NCBI GenBank assembly: GCA_025765615.1
Contig: JAIVFJ010000208.1
Coordinates: 1 to 64,000, forward strand
DNA: 64,000 bases
Source of the DNA: Zopfochytrium polystomum
Taxonomy: Eukaryota > Chytridiomycota > Chytridiomycetes > Chytridiales > Chytridiaceae
Direction of reading: 5' to 3'
Numbering within the stretch: the first letter of the stretch is position 1; every line of letters starts with the position of its first letter. Below the pieces are notes generated by a model, which did not search any database, was not told where the DNA came from, and saw nothing but the letters and a program-made list of their open reading frames with translations. This document shows positions 4,291 to 47,410 of this stretch, in pieces. A program made the position numbers and the translations under genes.

Positions 4291-4820
4291 CACTTTTCCT
4301 TTTTAAGATGCAAGTTAATCGAAGTTCTCACGAGGCGGGAACAAACGGAGCACCGCTGGTCCACGAGAGGCGTTTAGGAATATCTTGCAAGACGTTGGGC
4401 CTCACGAAACGGCAGAAGCATGCTGTGAAAAATAGTATCAAGTTTAACCTGTGAATCAGAGTTTTAAAAAATGGATTGACATTGTGGACCAATCCAGCGA
4501 TTGCGTGGGACGGCGATTTTGCAATGGACGGGCGTGGTCACTCAGGTTTACTTGGTGGTCGCTCATGTTGTCTCTTGATGCTGCATGATTTCGACTTTGC
4601 GGCTTCGGTGGGCCGCGGGCGACGACTTCTCTTGTTCTCCTATTGCCTCTTCAATTTGGCGTATGCCGCCTCCGCTCGGCAGACAAAGCGGAGGACCGCG
4701 GCAAAGATGGATGCTCACTGCTCTGCTCTTTTTTAACTGCACTCAGCCCACCAAGAATGTGCTTAGCCTCCTTTCCCTTTCTGTCTGCCCCCACCCCCGT
4801 CCCCGCACTTCGTCCTTCAC

Positions 4821-4827
4821 TATAAGT
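4821..4827 (+). promoter_or_regulatory. TATA-like box of Family A gene 1
   Basis: The sequence TATAAGT lies about 75 bp before the ATG at 4901. A comparable box precedes members 4 and 5 of the same family (near 9986 and 13870). Confidence 0.4.
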
Positions 4828-4900
4828 ACTTTCATGCACTTTGAGGAGACAGCAGACCCACTTTATCGTCCGAACCACCACCATAGTGCCATCTTCAACA

Positions 4901-5740
4901 ATGCGTTCCCTGACCCTCCTAGTCGCCGCCCTTTTTACCGCTGCCGCCTCCATGGTTGCAGCCGCACCGCTCCCGCCCACCGCCGATCTCGCGCTCGTCG
5001 GCTCAACCAGCTTGATATCCGCCAACACTGCTGCCGTCGTCCAGCTCGAGCGCCGTACGTGTTAGCCCCATTTTCCTGTGCACAATTTTGTTCGATCGTC
5101 CAGAACAGCTGATCGCATGCCTATCTTCTTTCCCTTGCGGACGTGGTGTTGTGTTCGGTTGGTGAAGGCCGTAAGTGTGCTGAATTGCGAGCAAATTGTA
5201 GCGAACTCAGGTTCTGATATCTCTCTCGCACCTTTAAATGTCAATCTCACAGACAAAGGCAAAAAGGGGAAAAAAGGTAAAGGCAAGCACGGCAAGGGCA
5301 AAGGCAAGAAAGGCAAGGGCATGGGAGGTGGTCCTCCCCCAGGTATGAGAGCCACCCCTTTCTCCGCTTCTCCAGCCCTCGTTATTGCGGGAAGAAAAGG
5401 CCTCTAATCGCCCGAAACGATGAACAATGGCACAATCGACTTGACAGCTGCCGCCGAAGCGCCCCCAGCCGAAGCCGCCCCTGCCGAAGCACCTGCCGAG
5501 GGTCTGGTTGACTTCGAAGGCTACGATGACGAGGCCGCCTACGACGACGAAATCGCTGCGGCGTTTGACGAGGAGGAGGCGTTTGACGACGACGACGTTG
5601 TCGAAGGCGAACTGTTTGACGACGAGGAGGCCGTTGACGAGGAGGAACTGGAGGATGAAGAGCTCGAAGAGGCCGTCGATGAGGAGGAGCTCGAGGAAGA
5701 GGAGGCTCTTGATGAGGAGGAGATTTACGACGACGAATAA
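4901..5740 (+). CDS. Family A member 1: secreted polyampholyte protein
   Basis: Exons 4901-5054, 5253-5342 and 5448-5740 (178 aa), both introns in phase 1. Exon 1 encodes a signal peptide ('MRSLTLLVAALFTAAASMV', Ala-rich cleavage region) and a short pro-segment ending 'VVQLER', with a basic residue contributed across the intron, resembling a Kex2-type site. Exon 2 encodes a cationic block of GKGKKG repeats ending in GGGPPP. Exon 3 starts with AAEAPPAEAAPAEAP, then the family motif 'GLVDFEGYDDEAAYDDE', then a long Asp/Glu tail (EEAVDEEELEDEEL). I do not recognise the family. The layout suggests an extracellular charged, possibly metal- or wall-binding or self-associating protein; this is inference. 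It is the first of five tandem copies. Confidence 0.8.
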
Positions 5741-6307
5741 GTCGCTTGATGGTGGATTCTACGAGTTTCTTGTACTTTTTCGTTTTTTACTTAGTTGCGT
5801 TTGCCACTCCATTGTATATAAGGGCAAGTTGTGGGGTTTTCTTCCAGCCCGAAGCAAGTGGATGGGGAAGCGTTGCGGGCAGGTTGAGTTACACCGTTCA
5901 ACAGCAAACAGCAGCTGCGGTCAAAGAGCTTGGAACAAACATTTACAAAACACGAACCACAAAACACTAGCGAATAGTAACGACTATGTTTTTGCGCTGT
6001 CTTTGTTTGCTGCTACCCTGTGTGCCAGTGCGCTGCACGGGAAGGAGTGAACGTGTATTGTGGCATGTGACAAGGGAAAACACGTGATTGAACTATGCGG
6101 GTGATTCTCGCACGCTTGAGAGGAATTTGGAACGAGCCGAAAAAGGAAAGAAAAAACAATTTACTGCTTTCCGAGTGTCTGCGGCTTCCCTTTTTGGAAA
6201 TAGCTCAGCCAAGTGTGTGCTCCGCCCCTCCGACATTTCCGCGCACCGAACCAACATAGACCTTTCCAACACAACAGCATTCGCCACAGCTCGTTTTGCC
6301 GCAAGTC

Positions 6308-7683
6308 ATGCGTCCTCGCACCCTCCTGGTCGCCGCGTTCATTGCCGCAGCTGCGTCTGTGGTGGATGCCGCACCGCTCACCGTCACGGGCGATCTCACG
6401 CTCGCTGGCGCCAGCAGCTTGATCTCGGCTGACCATGCCGCCGTCGTCCAGCTTGAGCGCCGTACGCACCACAATTCTTGCTTTTCTAATCTCCATCTCG
6501 ATCCCCACAAACAACTGACCGCACCATCGGAAAAACGATGTTTCCTCAACATTCCCTCCTCACCTCTCGATTGTGAACTTGGGGCTGTCACGTAACGTAA
6601 GTCTGGACGCGTGGTGAGCGGGCTTCGGGTGCCATCATCTCTAACACCACCCCCGTCGCACTTCCCTTTCTTAAAAATACAGACAACAAAGGAGGCAAAA
6701 GAGGAAAAGGCAAGAAAGGGAAGGGTCGCAAAGGCAAGCGCGGAAAGGGTAAGCGTGGCAAGAAGGGAAAGGGCGGCGGTGCTCCCCAAGGTATTTATCT
6801 CTGTCAGGCCCAACGCTACAACGCCAAGCCCGCTGATCACACAACTTCCCACCAAATCCTTGGTCCATGTTCAGGTGGAGCTGGTGATGCTGGTGGGGCT
6901 CCCGGCGACGCTCCCGCAGACGCACCTCCTGCAGGCGGCGACCCCGGCGGCGCTCCCGCCGGTGCTCCTGGCGGCGATCCCGGCGGCGCTCCTGGCGGCG
7001 ATCCAGGCGGCGCTCCTGGCGGCGCTCCTGCGGGAGGAGCCCCAGGAATGCCTGGCGACGGCAACGCGGCTGGGCCGACCTCCGCAGAAGCCCCCATGGC
7101 CATGGCCGACGCTGCTCCTGCTGGAGGGTACGGTGCGGCAGGGAACACTGTGTTTGGGAACCCTTCGTTTGGGAACCCTGCGGTTGGCAACCCTGCGGAA
7201 ATGTACGCTGCTGAAAGGTACCCCGCGGAGAGGAACCCTGCGGCTGGGTTCTCTGCGCAAGCGTACGCTGCGAATCAGTACCCGGCGGAAGGGTACCCTT
7301 CGAGAGGGCATCCTGCGATGGGATACGCTGCGAGACGGTACCCGGCGAGAGGGTACCCTGCGGAAGTCGCGCCGTACTATGGCCAAGCGGGCCTGGTTGA
7401 CTACGAAGGCTACGATGACGAGGCCGCCTACGACAACGACTTTGCTGCGGCATTTGACGAGGAGGAGGCGGTCGACGACGACGGTGCAGTCGAAGAAGAG
7501 CTATTCGATGACGAAAAAGCAGTTGACGAGGAGGAGCTCGAGGAGGAAGGGCTGGAGGAAGACGAGGACGTGGACGAGGAGGAGCTTGACGAGGAGGAAA
7601 TTGATGAGGAAGCAGGAGATGAGGAGCGGCTGGAGGACGAAGAGGCTGCCGACGAGGAAGAGGTCTATGAGGACGACGAGTAA
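6308..7683 (+). CDS. Family A member 2: longest, with collagen-like and Tyr-Pro repeats
   Basis: Exons 6308-6461, 6683-6790 and 6875-7683 (about 356 aa), phase-1 introns as in its paralogues. Signal peptide 'MRPRTLLVAAFIAAAASVV', pro-segment 'LTLAGASSLISADHAAVVQ' ending LER, and a cationic exon 2 (KGKKGKGRKGKRGKG). Exon 3 is extended. It begins with Gly/Pro/Asp/Ala repeats (GGDPGGAPGG), continues with short repeats of the types 'FGNPSFGNPAVGNP' and 'RYPAERNPA / YPAEGYPS', then the family motif 'GLVDYEGYDDEAAYDND' and the acidic tail. The GGxP and YPAE insertions are absent from members 1, 4 and 5 and reduced in member 3. Secretion is supported by the signal peptide; function is unknown. From 5741 to 6300 I see only an intergenic region. 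Confidence 0.8.
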
Positions 7684-8221
7684 GTCACTGGATGCGCCGT
7701 TGCGTCGTTGCGGTCCTTATGTTGAACTGCTGCGGGACGGTCTGTTCACCTTCAGGAGGATCCTACTTGTTCCTGTTATTTTTCGTTCCTGTCATCTGTT
7801 TGTCTTTCCACTTCTGATTGTCCAAATTGCACCAATTGAGCCCCCTGGCCTGCATTTCAATGACTGGAGGACAGCCATAAGGGGTTCTGAGCCAACCGCA
7901 AACAGAAAGTGATCCAAGGGGCTGATTCACTTGCAGCTACCTTTTTACTTCCGCTAGAAGGGTAACTTTTGCATGACCTTGCAAGTGAAGATGAAGATAA
8001 GGGACTGCATCAACCACATTTGTCGACTCGGCTCGGCATATTCCGGAATTCACTCGAAATGGAAAAGCAAACAGCATTCTTCGTGCCTGCAGCTTCTCTT
8101 CGCGTGGAAATGGGCTCAGCCCATGTGCTTCGCCTCGTAACTTTAACAGCTTCACATGGATTCCCATGGAGATTCAGTCCGCCAACCAAACTTCTGCCTT
8201 CGGATCACTATTCCACAAGCA

Positions 8222-9266
8222 ATGCGCTCCCTCAGTCTCCTCGTCGCCGTGCTCGTTGCCACCGCCGCGTCTATGGTTGCAGCCGCGCCGTTTCCGGCCA
8301 ACACCGACCTCGCACTCGTCGGCTCCAACAGCCTGATCTCGGCTGACCACGCTGGAGTGGTCGAGCTGGAGCGACGTAAGCACCACACCTCTTGCATCTT
8401 CTTACCCTGCACACAAAACTTATCATACCCCGATCGGATTAACGATTTCCTCCTCGTGCTTTCTTACTTTCTTTCCCTGAACTCACAATCGTGTACTGGA
8501 TCTGGCTGACACAGGACGTAAGTCGATTGCATAATGAGCGACCTTTCTTGGGCCAGTATTCCCAACCACCACCCGATGTTTCCCATAATCGAAAATTAGA
8601 CGGCAGAAAAGGCAAAAAAGGAAAGGGCAGGAAAGGGAAGCGTGGCGGCAAAGGCAGGCGCGGAAAGGGCAAGCGTGGCAAGAAGGGCATGGGCGGCGGC
8701 CCTCCACCAGGTAAAACATCTTGCTCCAAGCCCACCTGTTTTTGGTTAAAGGCGTTGATAATTTATAAACCAAAAATAATCGTCGTGAATATTCTGGTTC
8801 AGCTGGTGACGCTGGCGCTCCTGGCGGCGCACCCGGTGACGCTCCCGCAGAAGCACCCCCCGCCGGAGTAGCTCCTGGCGATGCCGCACCTGCGGATGCC
8901 AACCCCGCGGAAGCGCCCCCGGCCGAAGCTGCACCTGCGGAAGGGTACCCTGCGGAAGCTGCGCCTGCAGAAGCTGGGCCCTACTATAGCCCAGCGGGTC
9001 TGGTTGACTTTGAGAGCTACGACGACGTGTCTGCCTTCGATGACGGCTTTGCTGCTGCGTTTGGCGAGGACGAAGTGCTCGACGACGACGAGGCGCTTGA
9101 CGAGGAGGAACTCGGGGATGACGAGTTCAAGGGAGAAGGAGCTGTCGAAGCGGTGGAGGCGCTTGACGAGGACGAATTGGAGGAGGAGGAGGAGGCTGTT
9201 GGAGAAGAAGAGTTTGAGGAAGAAGAGGCTGTTGGCGAGGAGGAATTATACGAAGACGAGGAGTGA
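8222..9266 (+). CDS. Family A member 3: secreted polyampholyte protein
   Basis: Exons 8222-8375, 8600-8710 and 8803-9266 (242 aa), phase-1 introns. Signal peptide 'MRSLSLLVAVLVATAASMV' and pro-segment 'LALVGSNSLISADHAGVVE' ending LER. Exon 2 is Lys/Arg/Gly-rich (GKKGKGRKGKRGGKGRRGKG, then GGGPPP). Exon 3 starts with APGGAPGDAPAEAPP and PAEAAPAEGYPAEAAP, then 'GLVDFESYDDVSAFDDG' and a Glu/Asp tail. Intron 1 (224 nt) contains an acceptor-like ACAG, the triplet GAC (8515-8517) and a donor GTAAGT. The same arrangement occurs in member 4, so a 3-nt microexon is possible. 7684-8150 holds no gene I can support. Confidence 0.8.
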
Positions 9267-9985
9267 TTCCTTCACTGTTTTTCGAACTGCGCTCCCGTTT
9301 TTTTTGGACTCTTCCTACTTTCACACTTTTTTTGTTTCCTGTGAATTCGCTCTTCTAATTATATCTCGCTCGCGAAGGCATTATTTCAACTGCGAGCGAG
9401 CACGAGTGAGGAATAAACCGAAAGGATTGCCTTGAGATTGCTTTCTGGAAGAGCGGAGGCTGCCGACGGAAATGAGCAAACGTTCGTACGGCCTTAAGCG
9501 AATCGGCATTGGCACAAGTAGCCACGCAGCTAAAATCTTTGCAAACCATGAGGACGGCGAGGGAAATGCGAGGCGACCTTCAGCGCGCCACAGTCGTCAG
9601 CGTGAATATATGCCAATAAGTATCTTTGTTACTGGCGTGATCGGCGCGTTCCCGGCGGCAGCAACGGTCCGTGGTGTGCCGGCAGCCAAACCAGCACGGA
9701 AACGGAAAAAAAAAAAGGAAAAAAAAAACAAACAAAATGGAAAATGTGTCTCACTTCCAACGCGTCATACTTTTTTTTTACTTTTTTGTTTTTCAAACAG
9801 GAATCTTCGAAACCGCACTCAGCCCGGCCCGGCCGGGAATGGCGTGCGGGTTGGTGCTTCGCCCCGTCAGTTGCTCCTCTCTCGCTCTTCGTCGCTCTCT
9901 CGCTCTCTCTCTCGCTCTCTCTCTCGCCCTCCCTTTCACAAACCGCAAGACAGTTTGTGCCTTCGCCCGGCCCCTTCAGGCCAGA

Positions 9986-9995
9986 TATATATATA
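9986..9995 (+). promoter_or_regulatory. TATA-like (TA)n box of Family A gene 4
   Basis: An alternating TA run lies about 105 bp upstream of the ATG at 10098, the spacing seen for other TATA boxes in this window. Confidence 0.4.
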
Positions 9996-10097
9996 CTTCC
10001 TGCCACACACCAATCCCCAGCCCATCAACCCCATCAATCACACCAATCACAACAGCAGCTCCACATATCCCCCCCGCCTCACTCAATCCAGCCCACA

Positions 10098-11075
10098 ATG
10101 CGCTCCATCACGCTCCTCGTTGCCGCCTTCGTGGCCGCCGCTGCCTCCATGGTCGCCGCCGCGCCGCTCCCCGCCACCTACATTTCCCTCGTTGGCTCCA
10201 ACGACCTGATCTCTGGCGTCTCCGCCGCCGTCGTCCAGCTCGAGCGCCGTATGTATTCTGGGTCGCTGGATTGTTTTGCTCGTCCTGTAACTAATCGAGG
10301 CCAATCCTTCTTCAACCACCATCGCCTCCTACCTGCCTCTTCTCTCACCCGCCTACAACGCGTTCGACTCTCAGGACGTAAGTTTCGTCTTGTTTCGGCT
10401 TGACACCATGGGTTCTGAATCGCTCATCAACCCACTGCTGCCATTTTTCAAATCAACTAGACAAGCACGGTAAAGGAGGCCGTGGCAAGGGCCGTGGCAA
10501 GAAGCGAGGCCCGCCGCCAGGTAAATCCAACGACGGTTCATTTGGTTTCTACCTCCCTCAAAATCATCTCCTCCGAACTCCACAAAGCCCACTCTTTTCG
10601 TGGGACAACGAGTCGCTGAGCTCCGACTTAACCTATTCTTTGCTCATCCTCATCAGCTCCCCCTGCCGAAGCCCCCGCGGACGCGCCGGCCGAGGGTCTC
10701 GTCGACTACGAGGGCTACGACGACGAAGCCGCCTACGACGATGAAATCGCAGCTGCCTTTGACGAGGAGGAGGCGTTCGACGACGACGAGGCCGTCGAGG
10801 ACGAAGAGTTTGACGACGAAGAGGCCGTCGACGAGGAAGAGCTCGATGACGAGGAGCTTGATGAAGAGGAGGCCGTCGACGAGGAAGAGCTCGACGAGGA
10901 GGAGGCGCTTGACGAGGAGGAGCTTGAAGAGGAGGAAGCTGTTGACGAGGAGGAACTCGAGGAGGAGGAGGCGGTCGACGAGGAGGAGCTGGAGGAAGAG
11001 GAGGCCCTCGACGAGGAGGAGCTTGAGGAGGAGGAGGCTGTCGACGAGGAGGAGGCCTACGACGACGAAGAGTAA
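10098..11075 (+). CDS. Family A member 4: secreted polyampholyte protein with longest acidic repeat
   Basis: Exons 10098-10248, 10461-10520 and 10657-11075 (209 aa), phase-1 introns. Signal peptide 'MRSITLLVAAFVAAAASMV' and pro-segment 'ISLVGSNDLISGVSAAVVQ' ending LER. Exon 2 is the shortest cationic block (KHGKGGRGKGRGKKRGPPP). Exon 3 begins PPAEAPADAPAEG, then 'LVDYEGYDDEAAYDDE', and is then dominated by near-perfect repeats of the type EAVDEEELEEEE, encoded by a GC-rich minisatellite of GACGAGGAGGAG-like units. Intron 1 carries TCAG, GAC (10375-10377), GTAAGT, as in member 3. Function unknown. Confidence 0.8.
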
Positions 11076-11257
11076 GCCCAGCTGCTGGGTTTTTCTCTGG
11101 GACTGGCAGTGCCCTTTTTACTTGGGTTCTACCTTACTCTGTACTTGTAATGTTTCTCTCCGTTTCTCTTTTTCCTTTCACTTCAATATATAAAGCACGC
11201 GACTGAAAACCACCGCCGCCACCCACCACCCGCGCCGCGAACAAAACGATCTGGCTC

Positions 11258-11545
11258 ATGGGCTTCGGCAACATCAACTCGGTCGCCGCGCGCCACGACC
11301 GCGTCCTTCTGAGCAAACTCGCGCGGGCCGTCCTAAACCGGCAAGATCGCGTATTCCCGGAGCGCGACGGCCGCCTCCCGCAGCTCGTCGCGTGCGAATG
11401 CACCTCGAGCGGGGCGGCGCTGCCTATCGCCGGCGACTACGCTGAAGCAAAGGCTGTGTTGTCGAAGGCGTTTGGTTGGACGTGGTCGACTTTGGATCTC
11501 TCGCTGAGAGCTCGCGCTACGAGCCCATCTCGTTTACGTGATTGA
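11258..11545 (+). pseudogene. Possible relic of a dinucleotide-binding oxidoreductase (COG2085-like)
   Basis: The segment 'AGDYAEAKAVLSKAFGW' near 11425-11480, followed one frame away by 'DVVDFGSLAESSRYEPIS', resembles the end of the Rossmann domain in F420/NADP-dependent oxidoreductase-like proteins, where a (G/S)DDAxAKxxV helix precedes GFxxVDxGxLxxAR. The join needs a frameshift, and the upstream part ('TIWLMGFGNINSVAARHD') lacks a clean GxGxxG. No full gene is present. The assignment is an inference from pattern only. A further open stretch to about 11690 is unassigned. Confidence 0.25.
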
Positions 11546-11818
11546 TGCGGAAGTGGAAAGTGGATGTGGCTGGGCTCTGGGGGCACTGTTGTCAAGGTGT
11601 CCGAAATTACTGAGCTCCTCAGCAAGGCGGCGAAAGATGGCCTTGTCGGTGGGGTATTGCCAAACGCTTTGACCGGATTTTGACCGGGTCTTCAACTTTC
11701 AAATAAATCGAGCCCAATCAGCCCATGCGGCTTCAATATCGCGATCGCGAGGATGGAAGGAAGCTCATATGTCCCACGCATGATAATGTCCAAGTAGTTA
11801 CACACCTGTGGCCAAGTT

Positions 11819-12670
11819 TTGTCCAGCGTCTCCCACGGGATGTCGCGGCCAAGCCACCGTCTTCTGCCCTCCGTTCTCCCGATCGCGATCTGCGGCTACA
11901 TCGAAACCCACAAGGAGCGCTTGGCAGTCGCATCCCTCTTCCGCCTGCGGCAAATTCAGGCAGTATCCTTGCTGGGGAAGATACAGCGAAGATACGGCTG
12001 CGACTATTTCCGATTCATCTCCGTCGGCGTCCTTGATTTCCTTCAACTCCACCTCCCAAGCGATCGACTCAGGAATCTCACTGTCGGTGGCACTTTGGAT
12101 TATATAGGGTCGGTGGACGTGCTTCAGTGGTGGAAGGAAAGCGGGTTGGAGCTGCAGTATACGGAGAAGGCGATCGCCCGTGCCAGCAATAATATGCTGC
12201 TGGATGTATTGAGTTGGTGGAAATACAGCGGGCTCGCCCTCAAGTATGACGAGTCACCTCTCAATTTTGCCTCAATGGAAGGGAGGATCGGTATGCTGCA
12301 GTGGTGGAAGGACAGTGGGCTCGAGTTGAAGTATGACGAACAGGCAATGGCATGGGCCAGCTACTATGGGCATGTCAGTGTATTGCAGCCCGAACGGCAC
12401 GCAACCCTTCCCGCTCGGCCAGGCTCTGAACACCGGTCGCTCTTCACCAAAGAAGGTGCGCGCATCTCTGGCACGACTTTTCTTAACTCTGCAGACTCTC
12501 ACTCAGTGGCAGAGCGGCCCATCCTTTGGAAATCGGAGTTCAAAACTTCGTCCGGGTGCTCATTGTCCCTTTTTGCCGCCAATCACCATTTCTCAGTGTC
12601 CATGAAAACTCCGCAATCCAGTTTGAAGTCCTCAAGCGTAACCTGGAGCGCAGAACGCCAAAACCTATGA
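11819..12670 (+). CDS. Truncated LQWW-type ankyrin-repeat protein
   Basis: The 283-aa reading frame starts with an F-box-like leader ('PIAICGYIETHKERLAVAS', compare 'SVICGYIHEPTDRYRVATL' of the gene at 60257-61445). Three LQWW repeats follow: 'VLQWWKESGLELQYTEKAI', 'VLSWWKYSGLALKYDESPL' and 'MLQWWKDSGLELKYDEQAM'. The fourth stops at 'VSVLQ' (near 12389), exactly where WW should follow, and the remaining 95 codons have no repeat character. The intact genes have 10 or more repeats, so this copy looks truncated by a rearrangement. Likely role: protein interaction scaffold. 12671-13190 shows no gene. Confidence 0.55.
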   Translation: MSSVSHGMSRPSHRLLPSVLPIAICGYIETHKERLAVASLFRLRQIQAVSLLGKIQRRYGCDYFRFISVGVLDFLQLHLPSDRLRNLTVGGTLDYIGSVDVLQWWKESGLELQYTEKAIARASNNMLLDVLSWWKYSGLALKYDESPLNFASMEGRIGMLQWWKDSGLELKYDEQAMAWASYYGHVSVLQPERHATLPARPGSEHRSLFTKEGARISGTTFLNSADSHSVAERPILWKSEFKTSSGCSLSLFAANHHFSVSMKTPQSSLKSSSVTWSAERQNL

Positions 12671-13194
12671 GATCTTCGTATCAAATCTGGTCGTGGCGTC
12701 CTGCGTAGGGGAACTAGGACTGAACATTATACTAGGACTCACACATCGAGACTACCTATTGGTCTGTGGGTGGCGCTCGCTGGAGCAGAAGGAATGTCGC
12801 TTTTACTTAATTTTTCGACAAACAGACGGTCGAAGCGCTTGCAAAGTTTGTGGCCGGGGTACAGCGGGCTAATGGTGGACTGGACTGGACTAGACTGGAC
12901 CCATCTTGGAGGATGCCGGGGGAAGGGTTGCAGCTCTTGAGGAGGCGGACTCACACGCCGCCTAACTGGCAACTGACACTGGTGGGCAACTCTGAGGGCT
13001 CCTTGATGCTAGCAGGAAGGACGCAGCTTCTCCGACAGACGACCGCCTGGAGCTTCATATCGTCCCCGCACCTTCCGCAACAAAGCAGCCCACACACCGG
13101 GCTGTGGTTGCGTCCCCGCCCTCCTGCAAAAGGAAAAACGGCACAGTGGGGGAAGCCACCGACGTACTCTACATTGCGGGTTGCGTTTGTCTGT

Positions 13195-13370
13195 CCGACC
13201 GGCGTCACAGAGGGCACGGCCGCGGCAGACCTGGCAGGTCTTGTCCAGTTCGATCGTCGTACGTAACCCCCCTTCTCCCGGCAATCCCTGAATAGGGCTA
13301 ATCGATCTTTGAATGGACGACTCCAGTTTAATCGCGTTCAAAAACCATACAGGCGGCAAGGACACGTCAA
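13195..13370 (+). pseudogene. Relic of a Family A gene (end of exon 1, intron, start of exon 2)
   Basis: 'AADLAGLVQFDRR' (near 13222-13262) matches the exon 1 end of member 5 ('GLVQLDRR'), and the donor GTACGT follows at the expected place (13259). A 94-nt intron-like stretch ends in CATACAG, and exon 2 restarts as GCGGCAAGGAC (GGKD, as in member 5) before a stop. The signal peptide and acidic exon are missing. It shows duplication and loss inside the array. 13371-13865 holds no supported gene. Confidence 0.5.
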
Positions 13371-13869
13371 CACCTTGAAATCAAAACCGATTGTTGAAGA
13401 GGCAAACAACTGTTCATTCGCCGCCCTCAGATGCACGACCGCCCCAAAAAACATAAACAGCGGCGCTCGTGTTGTTCACGGGCGTTCTTGTTTCACGACA
13501 GAACAAGCGGAACAAACCCGTGCCGGATAAATGCTGGATCGTTGCTATGCCTCTCGATATTGGCACCACCAGGCAGGCGTCCTTGCCTCGCATTGTGGAT
13601 TTGATCTGTGGTGCAATTGGGATCCTCAATTTTGTCTCGGCTGCCGGTCCTTGCCGGACCTTGAGCGGTCGTTCTCCGACAACTGGAGGCTGCCGGCGAC
13701 GACCGGCAACGACCTTGGGTTTGCCAGACAAAATTGAGCATCCCCCCAATGTCGCGGCCTGCCTTCGGGCTAAGCCAGACATACGCAAGCCAGCGGCGAT
13801 GGCGATTTCTCTGTCGCCGTCTCTCTTTCGCATTGCCTTCGCCGCACGCCACCGCCGAATCCATTTGCT

Positions 13870-13876
13870 TATAAAA
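13870..13876 (+). promoter_or_regulatory. TATA box of Family A gene 5
   Basis: TATAAAA about 104 bp upstream of the ATG at 13974. Confidence 0.45.
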
Positions 13877-13973
13877 AACAGCATCGGACCCTTCAGACCA
13901 GCAGCACTTCAACCCCAAGCCTTCCTTCTTTGCTCTCACAACAACACCAGACGGTCCACAACCAACCACCGCC

Positions 13974-14763
13974 ATGCGCACCATCTCGCTCCTCGTTGCT
14001 GCCGTCCTCGCCGCCATCGCGTCCTTGGTCACCGCCGCGCCGCTGCCGGCGACCGCCGACCTCGCCCTTCTGGGCGCTGAAGAAGTGATCGCCCCGGGGG
14101 AGTCCGTTGGCCTCGTCCAGCTCGACCGCCGTTAGTTCAACCTCCGCCCCCTCCCTCCACCACCTTCACTCCTCCCCCTCTCAATCCATTCCAACTGCTG
14201 CCCGACGTTGCGGATGAACGAGTCTCCCTATTTTGGATGTGGCCAACAACTTCCCCACCATATCACAACCCCTGACGTATCCTCGTTACACTGCGAACCC
14301 TACCCCCACGTTTCCAGGCGGTAAGGACAAGAAGGCAAAGAAGGCCGCCAAGAAAGCCGCCAAAGCGGAAAGGAAGGCCGCAAAAGCAGGTTCGTCATAA
14401 TCTCTTCCTTCTCTTTCCTTTCCTCCTTCCCAGCTCATGCCGGTTGACGCCTTTTGCAATCCTCCCTTCCACAAAACAACAGCGGCTGCGCAACAGGATG
14501 GTGGCGGCGAGGCTACACCAGATGCCCAGGCGGCTCTGGTTGACTATGAGGGCTACGACGAGGAGGCGGCCTTTGATGATGACTTTGCGGATACGTTTGA
14601 CGACGAGGAGGAGTTAGACGACGACGAGGCTGTCGAGGATGAGGAGTTTGATGATGATGAGGCGGTCGACGAGGAGGAGATCGAGGACGAAGAGGCGATG
14701 GACGAGGAGGATTTCGGTGAGGAGGCGCTGGATGAGGAGGAGGTCTTCGACGACGAAGAGTGA
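13974..14763 (+). CDS. Family A member 5: divergent secreted polyampholyte protein
   Basis: Exons 13974-14130, 14318-14389 and 14483-14763 (169 aa), phase-1 introns. Signal peptide 'MRTISLLVAAVLAAIASLV' and pro-segment ending 'GLVQLDR' plus Arg across the intron. Exon 2 is Lys/Ala-rich rather than Lys/Gly-rich (KDKKAKKAAKKAAKAERKAA), so the cationic character is kept while the sequence changed. Exon 3 has QQDGGGEATPDAQ, 'ALVDYEGYDEEAAFDDD' and an acidic tail ending DEEEVFDDEE. The most divergent copy; retention of charge layout suggests selection on charge pattern. 14764-15690 contains no gene I can support (a TTGC tetranucleotide run lies near 15050). Confidence 0.78.
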
Positions 14764-15695
14764 ACAGGAGGCCGCTTGGTCCTCTCCGTTGGGACGTCGG
14801 TTATCCTTGCCCTGTACTTTGCCTGTAATTTTTCTTTTTGCACCTTCTCTGCTTTCTCTAGTTTCCAATACAAATATGCACACTACGCCGAAACGCGCTT
14901 CATGAGAAAGAAGCTTCAATGGTAGGAGCGGTCTGTGTTTGTGTGAGTGTGTGCGTTTGCGCGTGTGTGAGTCCGAGTGAGTGAGTGGCAGTGGGGCGGG
15001 CCGAACCATCGAGCGATGAGCCGGGGAGTGACGGTTGTGAGGTGCGACCGCTTGCTTGCTTGCTTGCTGTGTTGAAACGGACAAGCACAGGCAAGTCGGA
15101 GAAACGGAAAAACGAATCGGGAGCCATGGTGTATGACATGGCAGACGTCCAAATCAGCGTACGGACAATAAATTGTTACTTGGTCTGTTTCGTCTATCGT
15201 TCAAGCAAACACCTCGTTGGTATAATTGTTCTGCGCGCGCGGTGCAAAAGTTTGTTGGAGCAACACAAACCCACACTCCCCACAGGAACTGCTGACTTCG
15301 GGGCATGGAAAGGGATTATGGATGAACATTGACTCAAGGAGGGCGTCGCGCTCAGCTGGAGCGAGGAGCCCCACTGGGCAGCCACGCGAGGGAAGCACGC
15401 GCCATCGGCGAAAATAATGGTGGAGATTGGGACCGCCGGGCAACTGCAGTCTAACAGTGAAGAACGGCAGTTTGACGGTGATCGTCCCTGTGTAGTGTTT
15501 TGCAGGAAGCCGCCTTGTGATACAGAAAGTTTGAAAATTGTACAGAAAGTGAAATCCCTCAGGGCTATGCGTTCATCTTAAAGCAATGATGGACCTGAAG
15601 TTTTTTATCTTTTCGTGTCTGCCAGCGAAGTGCGGTAGCGGTGGATCACGCATTTAAACCGTTACTTTCAGCATATCAATTGATAGGAATAATAA

Positions 15696-15863
15696 CGTGG
15701 GACAGGCGCGAACGCTCATGACCCACAAGGAAAAAATTGTGCGGTCTCGTTCGCCCACAAAGACGAAGAGTGCCGGAACGGGCCCCGCGTTTGTGCAATG
15801 GAAGCGCCACACCAGCAGGCACTGGGCCTTCGTGATCACCCACTGCCCCAGCCAGGTAAGTAT
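15696..15863 (-). ncRNA. U1 spliceosomal snRNA, copy 1
   Basis: Reading the minus strand from 15863, the RNA begins ATACTTACCTGG, the invariant U1 5' end that pairs with 5' splice sites. Further U1 landmarks follow in order: 'GATCACGAAGG' (stem-loop I region), 'CCATTGCAC' (stem-loop II loop, U1A site), an Sm site 'CAATTTTTTCC', and a terminal hairpin closed by GTGGG/CCCAC with a TTCG loop. The length of about 168 nt fits U1. A TATAAATA box lies about 27 bp upstream. The terminal stem differs slightly from copies 2 and 3. Confidence 0.9.
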
Positions 15864-16139: not shown

Positions 16140-16449
16140 CCCCGACCCCGCCGTTGTGAAAAGGCATACTTACCTGGCTGGGGCAGTGGGTGATCAAGAA
16201 GGCCCAATGCCTGTTGGTGCGGCGCTTCCATTGCACACACGCGAGGCCCGTGCTGGCACTCTTCGTCTTCGTGGCGAACGAGACGGCACAATTTTTTCCT
16301 TGTGGGTCACGGGCGTTCGCGCCTGTCCCACGTTTGATTCTGTTCATTGATGTGCTGAAAGCGCAACGGCTGGTCACGTTTGGGGGCGGCTGGTCCAGCG
16401 ATGGAGAAGACCAGCGGCGAGATTGATTGATTGATGGGTAACCAAACGC
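16130..16449 (+). repeat. Inverted duplication arm A (contains U1 copy 2)
   Basis: From the TATA box through the RNA to the sequence GGTAACCAAACG, this segment matches the reverse complement of 17328-17646 almost base for base. The two arms are separated by about 0.9 kb holding a broken dioxygenase gene. Confidence 0.8.
16166..16332 (+). ncRNA. U1 spliceosomal snRNA, copy 2
   Basis: Begins ATACTTACCTGGC at 16166. Contains 'GATCAAGAAGG', 'CCATTGCAC', the Sm site 'CAATTTTTTCC' and a 3' hairpin GGGCG-TTCG-CGCC closed by GTGGG/CCCAC. About 167 nt. Shared 3' flank with copy 3, including an ATTG tetranucleotide run, shows that a larger unit was duplicated. Confidence 0.92.
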
Positions 16450-17327: not shown

Positions 17328-17646
17328 CGTTTGGTTACCCATCAATCAATCAATCTCGCCGCTGGTCTTCTCCATCGCTGGACCAGCCGCCCCCAAACGT
17401 GACCAGCCGTTGCGCTTTCAGCACATCAATGAACAGAATCAAACGTGGGACAGGCGCGAACGCCCGTGACCTCACAAGGAAAAAATTGTGCCGTCTCGTT
17501 CGCCACGAAGACGAAGAGTGCCAGCACGGGCCTCGCGTGTGTGCAATGGAAGCGCCGCACCAACAGGCATTGGGCCTTCTTGATCACCCACTGCCCCAGC
17601 CAGGTAAGTATGCCTTTTCACATCGGCGGGGTCGGGGTATTTATAC
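17328..17646 (-). repeat. Inverted duplication arm B (contains U1 copy 3)
   Basis: Reverse-complement copy of 16130-16449, including the U1 gene, its TATA box and the shared 3' flank with ATCA tetranucleotides. Confidence 0.8.
17444..17611 (-). ncRNA. U1 spliceosomal snRNA, copy 3
   Basis: Minus strand from 17611: ATACTTACCTGG 5' end, 'GATCAAGAAGG', 'CCATTGCAC', Sm site 'CAATTTTTTCC', and terminal hairpin with TTCG loop. Nearly identical to copy 2; a small difference in the stem after the Sm site (GTGAGG in place of GTGGG) may weaken the terminal stem. Confidence 0.9.
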
Positions 17647-33053: not shown

Positions 33054-33788
33054 ATGAGCCGACTCGCCCTGCTCTTCGTTGTTGCGTTCCTCGCATCACC
33101 GTCCCTCGCGGCGTACCCTCAAGTCGATGGCAACTTCACCATCTCCGTCACCAACCAGCCCTCCTCCAACCAGTACTGCGTGGCCGACTCCATCGCCTAC
33201 ACGCTCGACCTGACCAACGTTCCAAAAGCCAACCCGAACAACAGCTCGGACGCGACCTACCTCTCCATCATGGTCATGGGACCCCCGCAGGACCCCTCTG
33301 TCGATCCGAACGGAATATCAAAGACACCTCGCGGCCTTGTCGTCAGCGCGCTGGGCAAAACCCTGGTCTCGACGTTCTCTGGTTCGGATGCGTATGTCGT
33401 AGAAGATACGCTGAAGGGATTCACCGGCCTCTTCCTCCGCGCGATCGTTTTCTACGACAGCCAAAGCGCGCTGTTTGAGTCCTTCCAGACGGCGGCCTCC
33501 AGCAAAACCACTTTCTCGATTGCGAAAAGCTGCAACTCAACTAGCACATCGCCCTCCTTGTCGTCGACCTCATCATCGCCAACCTCGGCATCGTCGTCCG
33601 CTCTTCCGACTTCATCGACCTCAGACTCCACCTCAGCATCGTCGTCGCAAACATCCAGCTCCTCGGCCTCATCGAGCAGCTCTCCGAACTCGACTTCGTC
33701 GATCCTGTACAGCGGTGCTGTTGCGGGGGCCTCGGTATCCCTCTTTGCTGCCTTTGCTGCAGTCCCTCTGTTAATCCTCCTCGCATGA
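33054..33788 (+). CDS. Family B member 1: GPI-anchored cell-surface protein
   Basis: Single-exon 244-aa protein. Signal peptide 'MSRLALLFVVAFLASPSLA', then an about 150-aa ectodomain: 'GNFTISVTNQPSSNQYCVA', 'MVMGPPQDPSVDPNGISKT', 'PRGLVVSALGKTLVSTFSG' and 'GFTGLFLRAIVFYDSQSAL', ending at a second Cys in 'AKSCNST'. The two Cys could form one disulfide. A Ser/Thr-rich stalk follows, then a hydrophobic tail 'LFAAFAAVPLLILLA' after small residues, typical of a GPI signal. Several NxS/T sites. I do not recognise the family; a beta-sandwich like fungal Kre9/Knh-type surface domains is a guess. A surface or wall role is inferred. 33789-34086 is intergenic. Confidence 0.85.
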   Translation: MSRLALLFVVAFLASPSLAAYPQVDGNFTISVTNQPSSNQYCVADSIAYTLDLTNVPKANPNNSSDATYLSIMVMGPPQDPSVDPNGISKTPRGLVVSALGKTLVSTFSGSDAYVVEDTLKGFTGLFLRAIVFYDSQSALFESFQTAASSKTTFSIAKSCNSTSTSPSLSSTSSSPTSASSSALPTSSTSDSTSASSSQTSSSSASSSSSPNSTSSILYSGAVAGASVSLFAAFAAVPLLILLA

Positions 33789-34086: not shown

Positions 34087-35707
34087 CTACTCCGCCGGGA
34101 CGATCGGGTGCTTCTTGTGGAACACATTGGCGGGGTCATACTTTTTCTTGAGCAGTTGAAGTCGAGAGTAGTTCTCCCCGTAAATGTAGTCGCCCTTGTG
34201 CTCTTTCAAGACGGCTGCGTTCGGGTATCCGGTGCCTTTGATAATGTCTCCGCCCACCTTTTTTGCGTGCCTGTCGCGGAGATTCTTGATCATGCTTTTG
34301 GCATGCGCGTGGGCCTCGCCAGCCTCTTCGGGATTGTCGTAGCTGCGGTTGAAAGTGGATTGTGTGGGAAAAAAGGGTTTGATTGAGGATGAATAATGTG
34401 CAAAAATTAATGTGCCAGAGGAACTCACCCAACATAAATGGCAACATCACGCCAAATGTTGCCGTTCGGGTCGGCCGGCTTTCGTCGGTGCGGTGGCCAA
34501 GCGGACTCGAGGTGGGCGAACTCGGTGAGTGGCTTTGTCCAGTCGTACAATCCGATATAAAACTGGGTGCCGGCGCCGCGGCCCTTCCCGCCTCGTATCC
34601 AAGCGCGCGTCTCGTCAACCAACGGCATGAGTACCTCGGGTGACAGGTCCGTGATCAGCGTGCCATCCGACAGCCGGTTCGTCGGCGCCCAGATGGACTC
34701 GGGGAAAAAGTCTGCCGACTCGTGAAACCAACATTCCCGCGAAGTGTCCTTGACAAAGGGCAGCTCAAAGAACACCCGGAACCGGCGCCGGTACTCCTCC
34801 TCGCTGTCCCCGTGGTAGTACAGCATCAGCACGAACATATCCTCCTGCCCCGGTATCAGCCCGGCCATGGTCAACGCCGCCATGTCCTCCTTCTTCTGCG
34901 ACTTGGCGTAGCCACCCAGCGCCTCAATCACCGCAGCGTACGCCGGCGGCGGGTACAAGACAGCGCCGAACCACACCTTGCTCACCAGCGGCACCGCGCG
35001 GAACCTCATCTTCGTCACGACGCCAAAGTTGTACGCTGCGCCGCGCAGCGCAAAGTACAGCTCCGCGTTCTCCGTCGCGGACACCGTCACGCACTCGCCG
35101 CTGGCCAGCACCACCCGCGCGTCGACGAGCCCGTCCGCGGCCATCCCGTAGACCCCCATGCCCCAGCCGAAGCCGCCGCCGAGGGCGAAGCCGGCGTAGC
35201 CGATCTCCTTGTGGGAGGGGACGGGGACGAAGACGCCGCGTCGCTCGCAGGCGAGGGCGACGTCTGCCACTGTTGCGCCGCCCTCCATGACGACGTGACC
35301 CGCGGCGCCGTAGGCGGCGTTTTCGACCCACGCCGTACGCATCCGCTTGAGGTCGATGATGACGCCGTCAGAGGATGATGCGCCGAGGAACGAGTGGCCG
35401 CCCGAGCAGACTGCGAGCTCGAGGTTGTTGGACGTTGCATAATTGATGGCGACCGCGACGTCGGCTTCAGTGCAGGGCTGGAAGATGACTTGTGGGCGGG
35501 CTTCTTCGTTGGGAGAGAAGCGGTAGACGAGGGCGTTGTAGAGGTCGTCGCCTGGGACGACAACCACTGGAGGTGGGCGAAGCGAGGAAAGCACAAAGAT
35601 AGGCTATGATTAGCAAGATGAAGCGCTCATCTTCACGTTGCACAAGTAGCTCGCTTGGTGAACAGACCTCCTCGAAAACGGTCTTTGACAGACTCCAGTG
35701 ATGTCAT
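34087..35707 (-). CDS. FAD-linked oxidase, berberine-bridge-enzyme-like
   Basis: Exons 35707-35668, 35566-34429 and 34342-34087 give 477 aa; all phases agree. The start 'MTSLESVKDRFRG' is spliced to 'VVVVPGDDLYNALVYRF', the usual beginning of the FAD_binding_4 fold. 'CSGGHSFLG' carries the His used for covalent FAD, and 'GFALGGGFGWGMG' follows. The Cys used for the second covalent FAD link in bicovalent members is not at its usual place (VPSHKEIGYAG). The C-terminal BBE domain is 'NYSRLQLLKKKYDPANVFH'. Such enzymes oxidise carbohydrates or secondary metabolites. No signal peptide is seen, so it may act inside the cell. It lies head to tail in the same orientation as the laccase, within the Family B cluster. 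Confidence 0.88.
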
Positions 35708-37701: not shown

Positions 37702-39627
37702 TCAAATTCCCGAATCATCCATCTCCGCAAGCGTCGGCTCCACCGTCACATACGATTCCCAATTCGTGCACGTCTGATTCCACGCGCTATCCACGCCGAC
37801 ATTGCCCCTGATTTCCGAGTACCTCTCGACAAACTGCAGCGACAGGCCGTCGCTGGCATGGAAAGCGATATGGCAGTGCATGAGCCAGGTGCCAGGGTTG
37901 TCGAGCGGGAACGCGACGGCGAGGTAGCCGACGGCGGGGAGTACAACGACGTCGCGGCGCGGGGCGGCCGTCGTGAGGTAGTCGGTGAAGGCGCCGGAGA
38001 AGGTGCCGGTGCCGCGGGCAAGGACCCACCAGTCGTGGCCGTGGATGTGCAACGGGTGATCGGCGGGGATGCTGGAGCTGTGATTTTTGTAGTTTTCGTA
38101 TAAAATTGGTTGGTTAAAGCTCCGTCCTGGGGACGGGGGCCGGGAAGAAAAAGTCCATGCAATAACCTGATCACAAAGTAGGCCCAGTCGGAGGAAGTGC
38201 CGTTGAGCGAGACGACGTTGAAGGCGCTGGGGTACGACGCATTCTGGGCTTCGATCATCCCGAGGGATGGGTTGGCCCAGTCGATGACCTGAGTCACTCC
38301 GTTGATGTACCATTTCGCTTGGGAGAACACGACGGGCAAAGAGCCGCTGGAGGCGGCGGACGACGCAGAAATTGTTTTCGTGAGTTTCGGCGTCAGCGAC
38401 ATGGTCTCATCACCGCAGTCGTCCGTGTACGCGTACGCTGTCGTCGTGGGGTCCGCAGTCAGGTTGGCCGCCGTCGCGTACCGGAGGATGCCCTTGATGC
38501 CGTTCTGGTTCTTGTTGTTTGTGCAGGACAGCTGCGGGATGGCGCGGATCCAGTAGTTATCGGCCGTCTGATTCGCGGTGAAGACAATGTCGTACCGCTG
38601 ACCGAGGGCGACGTTTATGACGGTAGCATTGTAGGGGACGATGGGGACCAGGTCGGCGGCGATGACCTGGAAGGTGTGGTTGTCGATCGAGAACTTCATG
38701 TGAGCGAAGACGCCGGTGTTGATGACGCGGAGGCGGTAGGTCTTGCCGGGGTCGACGGTCGTGGTGTAGTAGGAGCCGGCGTCGTTGTACATGTTGGTGC
38801 CGTTCAGCAGGCCGTTGTCGGCTGCCGGTGGCGGGCCAGTGTTGATAGAAAAGAGATAGAATGCATCGGAGTGTGCCCAGTCTTGGATCGTTAGCGGGCC
38901 GAGGTCCACGTCGTAGTTGGCAGTGGCAGGGCCGTTGATTACGATGGGACCGATTGCGCCGTTGCCGTACTGCAGGGAGAAGTGGCTGTGGTACCAGGTC
39001 GTGCCTTGAATTGTGTAAGCATGTCAGATTACAGGCTTTGAGAACAGCCACAGCCAAACAAGGAAAAAAGTCACGAACCGTATTGCGTTGCGTGCCAGGT
39101 GTACCTGAAAGTATCGCCAGGCGCGATCGCGCACTGCGTTACGCCCGGTACTCCGTCGCTTGCGGCAGTGTAGTTTTGACGCAGCCCGTGCCTGTACAGT
39201 TTGTTTCGCTGCTTATTAGACAAGGGAACGGGGTTGTGGGAGTAGCTTGTGACAATAAAATTAAAACAACAGGGCTTAATACTTACCAGTGGAGTGCCGT
39301 GCCGTTACTCTCGAGATTATTAGTAACGTACACCACGACGGTGTCTCCCCAGTCCGCTGTGATCGTCGGTCCGGGAATCGAGCTGTTGAAAGCGGTGACC
39401 GAGCGCGAGAAGCCGTCGGGAGCCATCGTGACATTGTTGAGGGAGAGGTAGTAAGTGCGGGTGACGCCTGTGTGAGGCGCGGTTTCGTAGTAGTCGGTGG
39501 TGATGTCGTAGTCGCCCCAGCAGTCGCGGGCGCTGGCTGAATGAACGCAGGCTGCGCTTGACGAGCGGGCGTGGAGCAGAGCCGCAGCGGCGACCGTTGC
39601 CCCCAGTGAGAGCGCTTTAAAAATCAT
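37702..39627 (-). CDS. Laccase (multicopper oxidase), secreted
   Basis: Exons 39627-39287, 39191-39079, 39004-38167 and 38119-37702 give 569 aa. The last intron uses acceptor GGAG, chosen because it restores phase. Signal peptide 'MIFKALSLGATVAAAALL'. Copper ligands: L1 'HWHGL' (split by intron 1), L2 'TTWYHSHFSLQYGNG', L3 'HPLHIHGHDWW', L4 'WLMHCHIAFHASDGL', with Leu ten residues after the Cys as axial residue. It oxidises phenols with reduction of O2 to water, outside the cell. Many NxS/T sites. A TATAAAT box lies about 90 bp upstream. All four copper motifs are intact. Confidence 0.93.
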
Positions 39628-39714
39628 TGTTGTAGTATTCTTTAAAGTGAAGTCGCTTGTTGTCTCTATTTGGTGCAATCGATGCTTGCGATTGGCAGCG
39701 CGTGTCCCTTTTGC

Positions 39715-39721
39715 ATTTATA
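39715..39721 (-). promoter_or_regulatory. TATA box of the laccase gene
   Basis: TATAAAT on the minus strand, 88-94 bp before the ATG at 39627. Confidence 0.45.
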
Positions 39722-39889
39722 CTGAAAGCAATGTCAAATCTGAATGGAGATAATGGAAGAAAACTTTTCATCAAATAGCTGGGAAATTGAAAAGAATCGG
39801 AGGTGGGATGCTGCTCCGGCGAAAACTTGGCGCTTGATGTTTGTTGTTAACGCGCCTAAGAGGTAAAAGCAGCGACGGAACAAACGACG

Positions 39890-42009: not shown

Positions 42010-42117
42010 ATGACGAGATCGAATTGGGTTGTTGAACATTCACATCGCTTCCCCAAGTTCTTCTTTCCTATCCATCCCTCCCGCAAAATCCTTATCAACA
42101 ACAATCAGCTTGCTAAA

Positions 42118-45976: not shown

Positions 45977-46340
45977 CTCTTTCTTCTGGTCGTATTGCAT
46001 ATGAGTCTGATGTCGCTCCAAAGCTGGGTAGTGTGTGTCATTGGAATATAAGTATGCCATTCGTTTTAATTGTCCAGTGAAATGGATGGAAATAATGGGT
46101 GTAAGCGGGGGGATATTTAAAAATAGTTGCGGGAGAGTTCGATCGCGTGAGTTGCGGGGTTCAAGCGGGGAAACGCCTCGGACCTCCGGGCTTGCATATG
46201 GAAGCGTCCGTGCAGCTTCTATTTTTGGATTGTTTGGAAGGGGGGGCACCCGAGAGAAAACCACACAAACACACTGGCTCAGGACCGCAGCTAAATCGTT
46301 CTTTGCCGCAATTTCTCCACCAAACAACCACCAAACATCC

Positions 46341-47097: not shown

Positions 47098-47410
47098 GGT
47101 ACAATGTTTCAAGTTATTTAGCCTTGGCTGCGTTTGGATGCCGAGACAATACATCTACCGTCTTTGGTCCTTCCTTCCTTCGTTTGCGCGATGATCACAC
47201 ACCAAACATCGTTCCCGTTCTTCGGCAGAAGGAGTCCGGCCGCGCTTCGGGTCGTGGCTTCGTCTCCCTAATGCGTCTCCAATGCGTGGAGGCGCTCTGC
47301 CGCAGCCGCGGACAAGCCACAAACAGCCGCCACGCTTGTGGCTGAATCTCCTCCGTCTGCCTCTGTCTCCCGCTCTGTCTGTCTCCTTTCTTTCCGACGC
47401 ATTTCGTGTC

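Follow-up and report, generated by a model that had tools for sequence, protein, structure and literature searches.

The chytrid Zopfochytrium polystomum carries, on the 64,000-nucleotide stretch of DNA analysed here (positions 1 to 64,000 of contig JAIVFJ010000208.1, hereafter the window), five tandem plus-strand genes, M1-M5, between positions 4901 and 14763, that are predicted to encode secreted proteins with opposite charges kept in separate blocks. Splice models were built from positions 4400-15400, and in all five genes the order of parts is a signal peptide, a pro-segment, a cationic block rich in Lys and Gly (Lys and Ala in M5), and a long Asp/Glu tail. An earlier note, made from the letters of the window alone, had described five such paralogues, had remarked on the exchange of Lys/Gly for Lys/Ala in M5, and had taken the source for a zoosporic fungus, and on each of these points it is borne out.

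Five tandem genes for charge-block proteins

The blocks of the proteins correspond to exons, with the signal peptide and pro-segment, the cationic block, and the tail each encoded by one exon, and with intervening introns in phase 1. Read from the sequence, the N-termini begin with MR and continue into a hydrophobic signal core ending A-A-P, after which a pro-segment of about 30 residues finishes with LER or LDR; over this signal and pro region, M2-M5 are 55-74% identical to M1. The cationic exons, which encode Lys, Gly and Arg in M1-M4 and Lys and Ala in M5, are 90, 108, 111, 60 and 72 nucleotides (nt) long in M1-M5, every one a multiple of three flanked by phase-1 introns. The last exon begins with a linker, followed by LVD[YF]E and the Asp/Glu tail, and the chains terminate in YDDE, EDDE, EDEE or DDEE. 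None of the five proteins contains a Cys residue.

Within this common plan, individual members differ. For instance, M2 and M3 possess long Gly/Ala/Pro/Tyr linkers between the blocks, a feature absent from the earlier description, and the long linker of M2 is made up of GGAPGD plus YPAxGYPA, with GGDPGGAPGG and YPAxGYPA as repeats. The acidic tail of M4 consists of 33-bp (11-residue) repeats. A 17-residue motif said to be shared by all members is exact, within the window, in M4 only; M1 reads DFEGY, M2 ends in YDND, M5 has DYEGYDEEAAFDD, and in M3 the motif is eroded to DFESYDDVSAFDD. Upstream of M5 lies the probable relic of a sixth member, recognised by eye through comparison with M5, with exon 1 at about 13190-13258 and, on the same by-eye reading, no acidic exon after the relic. 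The positions of all these features are collected in Table 1.

Table 1. Genes, probable micro-exons and upstream elements of the M1-M5 cluster (positions in the window; slashes mark exon boundaries)
Feature	Position	Strand	Details
M1	4901-5740	+	179 amino acids; exons 4901-5054, probable micro-exon 5168-5170 (GCC), 5253-5342, 5448-5740
M2	6308-7683	+	356 amino acids; exons 6308-6461, 6683-6790, 6875-7683; no micro-exon acceptor, reads LER-H
M3	8222-9266	+	243 amino acids; exons 8222-8375, probable micro-exon 8515-8517 (GAC), 8600-8710, 8803-9266; motif eroded to GLVDFESYDDVSAFDDG
M4	10098-11075	+	210 amino acids; exons 10098-10248, probable micro-exon 10375-10377 (GAC), 10461-10520, 10657-11075
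M5	13974-14763	+	169 amino acids; exons 13974-14130, 14318-14389, 14483-14763; Lys/Ala block; LDR-R from one ordinary junction
Probable sixth-member relic	13190-13376 (start approximate)	+	ADLAGLVQFDRR/gtacgt ... acag/GCGGCAAGGAC; by-eye comparison with M5
Probable micro-exon, M1	5168-5170	+	AG/GCC/GTAAGT; would give the second Arg of L-E-R-R; acceptor GAAG unusual
Probable micro-exon, M3	8515-8517	+	CAG/GAC/GTAAGT
Probable micro-exon, M4	10375-10377	+	CAG/GAC/GTAAGT
Upstream element, M1	4742-4768	+	CTCAGCC and GTGCTTAGCC
Upstream element, M2	6204-6226	+	CTCAGCC and GTGCTCCGCC
Upstream element, M3	8115-8134	+	CTCAGCC and GTGCTTCGCC
Upstream element, M4	9818-9863	+	CTCAGCC and GTGCTTCGCC

The segregation of charge was compared with shuffled versions of each protein. 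The cumulative charge excursion after residue 22 is 51, 64, 55, 87 and 51 for M1-M5, as against maxima of 44, 58, 46, 82 and 50 in 2000 shuffles, with M5 exceeding its maximum barely, and the charge patterning score is greater than that of all 300 shuffles in each of the five proteins. Chance clustering of charges is thus rejected for the whole set, and the claim that opposite charges occupy separate blocks stands. The charges are not balanced, the acidic residues outnumbering the basic ones by about 3- to 9-fold and the net charge ranging from -39 to -79.

Copies, relatives and shared upstream elements

The window is taken from contig C208 of an 80.16 Mb assembly of 761 contigs. Exon 1 as a query against the whole genome gave 20 matches, and all 20 are accounted for by the five genes, which recur on four contig sets, namely C208, C245, C125, and C694 with C538; C538 also holds an M3 copy in which exon 1 looks frameshifted. 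The C245 copy is 97% identical to the window over 14 kb, and C125 is 89-96% identical in the main stretches. Some of the encoded proteins are identical, C208 and C245 agreeing for M3 and M4, and C125 and C538 for M4. Judged from these similarities, the four contig sets look like the haplotypes of an assembly that is phased and diploid or polyploid, and not like dispersed paralogues. As an observation on the genome at large, the fourfold occurrence of the locus, forming two classes of partly identical copies, would suggest that the 80 Mb genome is phased and diploid or polyploid, perhaps hybrid.

All three further haplotype-like copies of M1 preserve its frame and splice sites. Compared with the diverged haplotype (C125; for M5, C538), the pooled synonymous divergence (dS) is 0.105 and the nonsynonymous divergence (dN) 0.028, a dN/dS of 0.27, with values for single genes of 0.11 to 0.60. 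Divided by block, dN/dS is 0.44 for the signal and pro-segment (22 changes), 0.28 for the cationic block, a figure that is only rough because it rests on just 11 changes, 0.31 for the linker (38 changes), and 0.18 for the acidic part (81 changes). Coding indels are multiples of three in nine of nine cases in the five gene pairs, versus 9 of 49 in non-coding sequence. The block-wise ratios and indel counts draw on one partner per gene, C125 for M1-M4 and C538 for M5. Apparent frameshifts led to the exclusion of M3 on C538 and of M5 on C245 and C125 from dN/dS and the indel counts, and the M4 assigned to C694, which is the M1 of that contig mispaired, was left out of the block-wise, indel and micro-exon alignments. 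M3 on C694, where the locus ends inside the gene, was not aligned and was checked for the micro-exon motif only. Taken together, these comparisons indicate that the family is under purifying selection.

The family extends beyond the window. A profile of M1-M5 found a single match among about 5.8 billion proteins (E 6.1e-6), the hypothetical protein DFJ73DRAFT_774427 of Z. polystomum (NCBI; hereafter P0001), which is encoded exon by exon at C20:31353-32202 of the same assembly, and thus provides no evidence from another species. P0001 aligns with the family profile over residues 1-53 (hhalign probability 97.3%, E 1.8e-11), and distributes signal, pro-segment and RR, cationic block, and acidic part over three exons separated by two phase-1 introns, so that exon layout, intron phases and N-terminal similarity all place it in the family. 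Like M1-M5 it has a signal peptide, a pro-segment (ending L-A-R-R), a cationic Gly-rich exon, and an acidic tail, here with EELDEEEAVDEEEL; unlike them, it has a block of Gly, Phe, Lys, Met and Pro and a Tyr-rich stretch, DAYYNNYGYSS, and needs no micro-exon. A copy 87-99% alike exon by exon is found at C20:86397-87250, and a further pair at C20:89131-89985 and C15:74937-75786 completes this second subfamily of the same architecture on C20 and C15. P0001 clearly shows the layout of three exons with phase-1 introns; in the C20:89131 member, the last acceptor is ambiguous. Signal and pro exons that end L-T-R-R (LTRRG) account for eight matches on C278 and C91 (L057, L058 and L072, for instance), one of them with a stop; no clear acidic exon follows in the single copy read (L057), and these matches are either relics or an uncharacterised third group. 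A DNA pattern with at most three mismatches yielded mostly background (71 and 80 matches versus 64 and 43 for the reversed control), and its clustered matches alone were taken further.

None of the five proteins reaches a curated Pfam cut-off, with three of them having one sub-threshold match each (Extensin_1, Fungus-induced, AtzG-like), and M4, the only member tried against PDB, found no match there (best E 0.41). Residues 1-125 of M4 gave 1451 candidates in the protein collection, none at E 0.001 or below. With the five- and six-sequence profiles, the latter of which contains P0001 and matches it by construction, no relative outside the species was found in the roughly 5.8 billion proteins, a provisional result in that only 7991 and 7989 of the word-sharing candidates were scored, and acidic low-complexity words may therefore have crowded out distant relatives. 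Literature searches on secreted disordered proteins of chytrid zoospores and on acidic-tail lysine-rich matrix proteins returned nothing.

The genes of both subfamilies share sequence upstream. CTCAGCC is present in the 400 bases upstream of eight of ten genes (M1-M4, the two near-duplicate C20 copies, the C15 copy, and one C278 copy, L057), where about 0.035 occurrences would be expected per 400 bases of one strand (shuffles gave 11.29 per 64 kb on both strands). M5 has CTAAGCC, and the C20:89131 gene has neither. The count of CTCAGCC over the whole window, eight, is not above chance, and it is the position that is the notable feature. In the case of M1-M4, GTGCTYMGCC begins 10-36 bases downstream of the start of CTCAGCC; it occurs five times in the window versus 0.82 expected, a pattern derived from the same sites.

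A probable micro-exon and the Kex2-type site

The pro-segment had been said to end in a basic pair, LER-R or LDR-R, in every member. This is certain only for M5, where LDR-R results from a single junction and there is neither a micro-exon acceptor nor a GTAAGT donor. In M1-M4, exon 1 ends CG[CA] C before the donor, and a direct junction to the cationic exon (AC...) reads LER-H. The LER-R that appears in unspliced exon 1 is discarded, as the codon of the second Arg overlaps the splice donor (CGC C/GT... or CGA C/GT...) and would be lost in splicing. However, the first introns of M1, M3 and M4 contain the sequence AG/GCC/GTAAGT or AG/GAC/GTAAGT, with this inner donor 82-83 nt from the end of the intron, and inclusion of the enclosed 3 nt produces Arg-His, that is, LER-R-H. 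The basic pair is thus conditional on a 3-nt micro-exon in M1, M3 and M4 and missing from M2, and the three exons of the earlier description become three plus this probable fourth in the same three genes.

If a micro-exon is taken as an exon of at most 30 nt, M1, M3 and M4 would each contain one, the canonical acceptor and donor around the 3 nt being conserved, and every one of the 13 copies examined of the three genes has the motif AGNNNGTAAGT (12 aligned, the thirteenth being M3 on C694); the motif recurs in all of them and was not found elsewhere in the examined stretches of C245, C125, C538 and C694. For M2, GTAAGT lies 85-86 nt from the end of the first intron in all four copies, with no AG preceding it at that spacing. 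The first introns of the paralogues are otherwise largely unalike, with eight of ten pairs aligning no better than 200 shuffles. The pair M2-M3 surpasses its shuffles (28 versus a maximum of 27) through a long, weak match starting at the donor, and M3-M4 does so (24 versus 23) with a best match that is exactly CAGGACGTAAGT. Among 20000 first-order resamples of each intron, AGNNNGTAAGT appeared in 39, 3 and 5 for M1, M3 and M4, and the window holds six occurrences versus 0.63 expected, three of which are the M1, M3 and M4 sites; this pattern, like GTGCTYMGCC, was composed after the sites were seen, and the chance figures are post hoc. The acceptor of M1, GAAG, is a weak point, as the remaining modelled acceptors end in CAG or TAG. 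A twin intron with an interrupted donor was also considered and rejected, since the GTAAGT donor is intact downstream, which makes two introns around 3 nt the simpler reading. On balance, the micro-exon in M1, M3 and M4 is probable.

The intron positions of other members correspond to the two ends of this exon. The single intron of the second subfamily follows RR, the position of the second intron of the micro-exon, and that of M5 precedes the second R, the position of the first; the two arrangements would follow from an ancestral gene that had both introns, or from gains and losses in steps. The most surprising element is a 3-nt exon that, if included, would rank among the shortest and determine a single residue in a protease site. 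There is a fungal precedent for micro-exons in pombe (PMC11121469), so that a micro-exon in fungi is not new as such, and in plants the account in PMC8831610 includes validated 1-nt micro-exons, and GTRAGT donors in one gene family, making a 3-nt exon with a GTAAGT donor feasible.

The protease in question would be of the Kex2 type, whose published preference is for Arg at P1, a basic residue (Lys or Arg) at P2, and an aliphatic one such as Leu at P4 (PMC8528282). L-E-R-R, L-D-R-R and the L-A-R-R of P0001 match this preference, whereas in the skipped form, Q-L-E-R, P4 is Gln and P2 is Glu. That paper also lists Glu among the five best P2 alternatives and Asp at P3 as unfavourable (PMC8528282), a penalty that applies to the L-D-R-R of M5, so that the contrast between included and skipped forms is only one of degree. 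Within the genome, three matches above the cut-off were found to the P-domain of the convertase type (as in proprotein convertases), two of them with stops read through. Beyond the pro boundary, dibasic pairs (KR, KK, RK, RR) are confined to the basic block, with one extra in the linker of M2, as judged by eye for block spacing, and the repetitive acidic part has none in any of the five proteins. With regard to KR and RR specifically, none lies past the pro boundary in M1, M5 or P0001, pairs inside the block occur in M2 and M3 and a further one in the M2 linker, and only M4 has one between the blocks, at the block end (KKR-GPPP). In our own judgement, secretion followed by trimming at L-x-R-R, considered by itself, is quite likely.

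Inclusion or skipping of the micro-exon could then act as a maturation switch, L-E-R-R leading to removal of the pro-segment and L-E-R-H, a poorer site, to its being largely kept. We regard such a switch as unlikely. If it does operate, one gene could yield free and pro-bound forms of a condensing matrix protein, differing by life stage, with M2 fixed without a dibasic site and M5 fixed with one.

Proposed function and neighbouring genes

The nearest known kinds of protein are secreted proteins processed at a pro-domain and charge-block, matrix-like proteins. Our preferred interpretation, held tentatively, is that M1-M5 are secreted polyampholytes, mostly disordered and trimmed by Kex2, whose condensation with divalent ions would give rise to an extracellular matrix or adhesive. 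The signal peptide, as read from the sequence, would direct the chain into the secretory pathway, where a Kex2-type convertase would cleave after L-x-R-R (for M1, M3 and M4 only in mRNAs that include the micro-exon), removing the pro-segment and leaving a mature chain that starts with the cationic block. The cationic block of one chain would pair with the acidic tails of others, and the surplus acidic charge would bind Ca2+ or Mg2+, so that the proteins would undergo condensation within secretory vesicles and, once exocytosed, make up a cohesive matrix or adhesive. We infer this role, as distinct from the layout and the selection, from the charge pattern. The cationic exon, a symmetric phase-1 cassette, varies in kind (Lys/Gly, Lys/Ala, or Gly/Phe/Lys/Met/Pro), and the tail is always acidic, which favours a function of the charge pattern over that of an exact peptide. 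A place in the zoospore or cyst coat, as suggested in the earlier note, would be speculative. With its extreme charge pattern and its exchangeable cationic exon, the family offers candidates for a secreted chytrid matrix that are small, confined to one locus and open to testing.

Among animals, the lysine-rich matrix proteins of pearl oysters are secreted, of low complexity and marked by basic as well as acidic stretches, and granins are acidic, Ca2+-condensing granule proteins with dibasic sites; we know of no sequence link of M1-M5 to either. By analogy, a likeness may be seen to the cement of the sandcastle worm and Sabellaria (Pc-1/2 and Pc-3 types), in which basic Gly-rich and highly acidic partners occur together with Mg2+ and Ca2+, and polychaete cement is described as condensing from oppositely charged proteins with these ions (PMC12621633). 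In those cements, the basic and the acidic charge belong to different proteins, with phosphoserine as the acid, whereas M1-M5 have both charges on one chain and Asp/Glu as the acid.

Several observations weigh against the preferred interpretation. The net charge is far from neutral, so that chains could not neutralise themselves without cations or a basic partner. The single-sequence AlphaFold2 model of P0001 has no confident fold (mean predicted local distance difference test score (pLDDT) 54.3, predicted template modelling score 0.15), and low-confidence models would agree with whole-chain disorder without proving it, a low pLDDT from a single sequence being weak evidence of disorder; furthermore, the acidic exon of M4, modelled in the same way (mean pLDDT 63.4), forms a long helix over residues 68-135 of the 138-residue piece, and the acidic tail may thus be helical. 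At its pro boundary M2 has no dibasic site, and since Kex2 tolerates Glu at P2, cleavage might occur at LER-H as well. A P-domain match is no proof of Kex2, and two of the three matches have read-through stops. Finally, three copies in the assembly, M3 on C538 and M5 on both C245 and C125, seem to be frameshifted, the cause being either sequencing error or decay.

One alternative is that the acidic tail serves as a calcium or metal buffer, or a granin-like store, of high capacity and low affinity in secretory or vacuolar compartments, with the basic block only a sorting signal or membrane tether. The strongly negative net charge and the dN/dS of the acidic part, the lowest of all blocks (0.18), would suit such a store. 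However, every one of the five genes, and P0001 too, has the cationic block, which is seemingly constrained as well (0.28, on 11 changes), there is no Pfam domain such as an EF-hand, and the chain ends are unlike the known endoplasmic reticulum retention signal. We consider this alternative unlikely.

A further alternative, which we judge improbable, is a precursor of a cationic antimicrobial peptide, in which the Lys/Gly block would be the active peptide, kept neutral by the acidic tail until cleavage occurs. In its favour, M5, P0001 and, given the micro-exon, M1, M3 and M4 have a Kex2-type site immediately ahead of the cationic block, and M4 has a match, below the cut-off, to the Pfam Fungus-induced protein family (E 0.076, 13.8 bits versus 24). 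Against this, KR or RR between the two blocks is not conserved, for which reason release of a free cationic peptide is rejected as the main role, the block of M1-M4 has few hydrophobic residues, and the acidic excess goes beyond what neutralisation needs.

More doubtful still is an effector-like protein of the Kex2 pro-domain-processed (K2PP) class, acting on a host or substrate organism. K2PP proteins are fungal secreted proteins that likewise have an N-terminal pro-domain before a canonical Kex2 motif (PMC8528282), and the arrangement sought in that screen, in which the first half holds a pro-segment and KR/RR or LxxR comes after it, is found behind the signal peptide in M5 and P0001 and, given the micro-exon, in M1, M3 and M4, and is not found there in M2. 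They were defined among plant-pathogen effectors, whereas the mature part of M1-M5 is a charge-block, low-complexity chain. The five proteins have no Cys and no evident folded domain, in composition they are unlike folded, Cys-rich effectors, and no relative was found beyond the species. Kex2-processed repeat proteins (KEPs), of which Chytridiomycota average 9.37 per strain in the survey of PMC7329392, resemble M1-M5 in being secreted and repetitive with Kex2 sites. Their definition includes a signal peptide, which the sequence layout of M1-M5 would fit. That definition, as given in PMC7329392, also calls for at least three tandem repeats of at least eight residues, each between Kex2 sites (KR, KK, RK, RR), and membership is rejected because the acidic-tail repeats of M1-M5 are not separated by such sites.

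That the genes are artefacts of modelling or decaying repeat DNA without a protein product is very improbable: apparent frameshifts in three copies, the existence of exon-1 relics, and the absence of M1-M5 themselves from the protein collection would point that way, but coding indels in the compared pairs are in frame, dN/dS is well below 1, splice sites are conserved, upstream elements are shared, and a subfamily member was annotated by the depositors.

Elsewhere in the window, three genes for U1 spliceosomal RNA above the Rfam gathering score lie beyond M5, at 15697-15863 (-), 16166-16331 (+) and 17445-17611 (-). A second tandem family of secreted-looking proteins on the plus strand, of the form YPQVDGNFTITVTNQPASNQYCVGDSI by eye, occupies 33054-33788, 42010-43152, 44075-44743, 45158-45976, 46086-47345 and 47642-48337, with several members showing Ser-rich C-termini and a hydrophobic end like that of glycosylphosphatidylinositol-anchored proteins. 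By-eye reading also points to ankyrin-like repeat proteins of the form VLQWWKDSGLELKYD at 11840-12670 (+), 58194-58976 (+) and 60257-61445 (-), and to genes resembling a flavin adenine dinucleotide-linked oxidoreductase and a multicopper oxidase at 34425-35342 (-) and 37702-39771 (-). Nothing ties these oxidase-like genes, about 20 kb or more away, to the M1-M5 family, although a laccase could crosslink Tyr-rich linkers such as that of M2.

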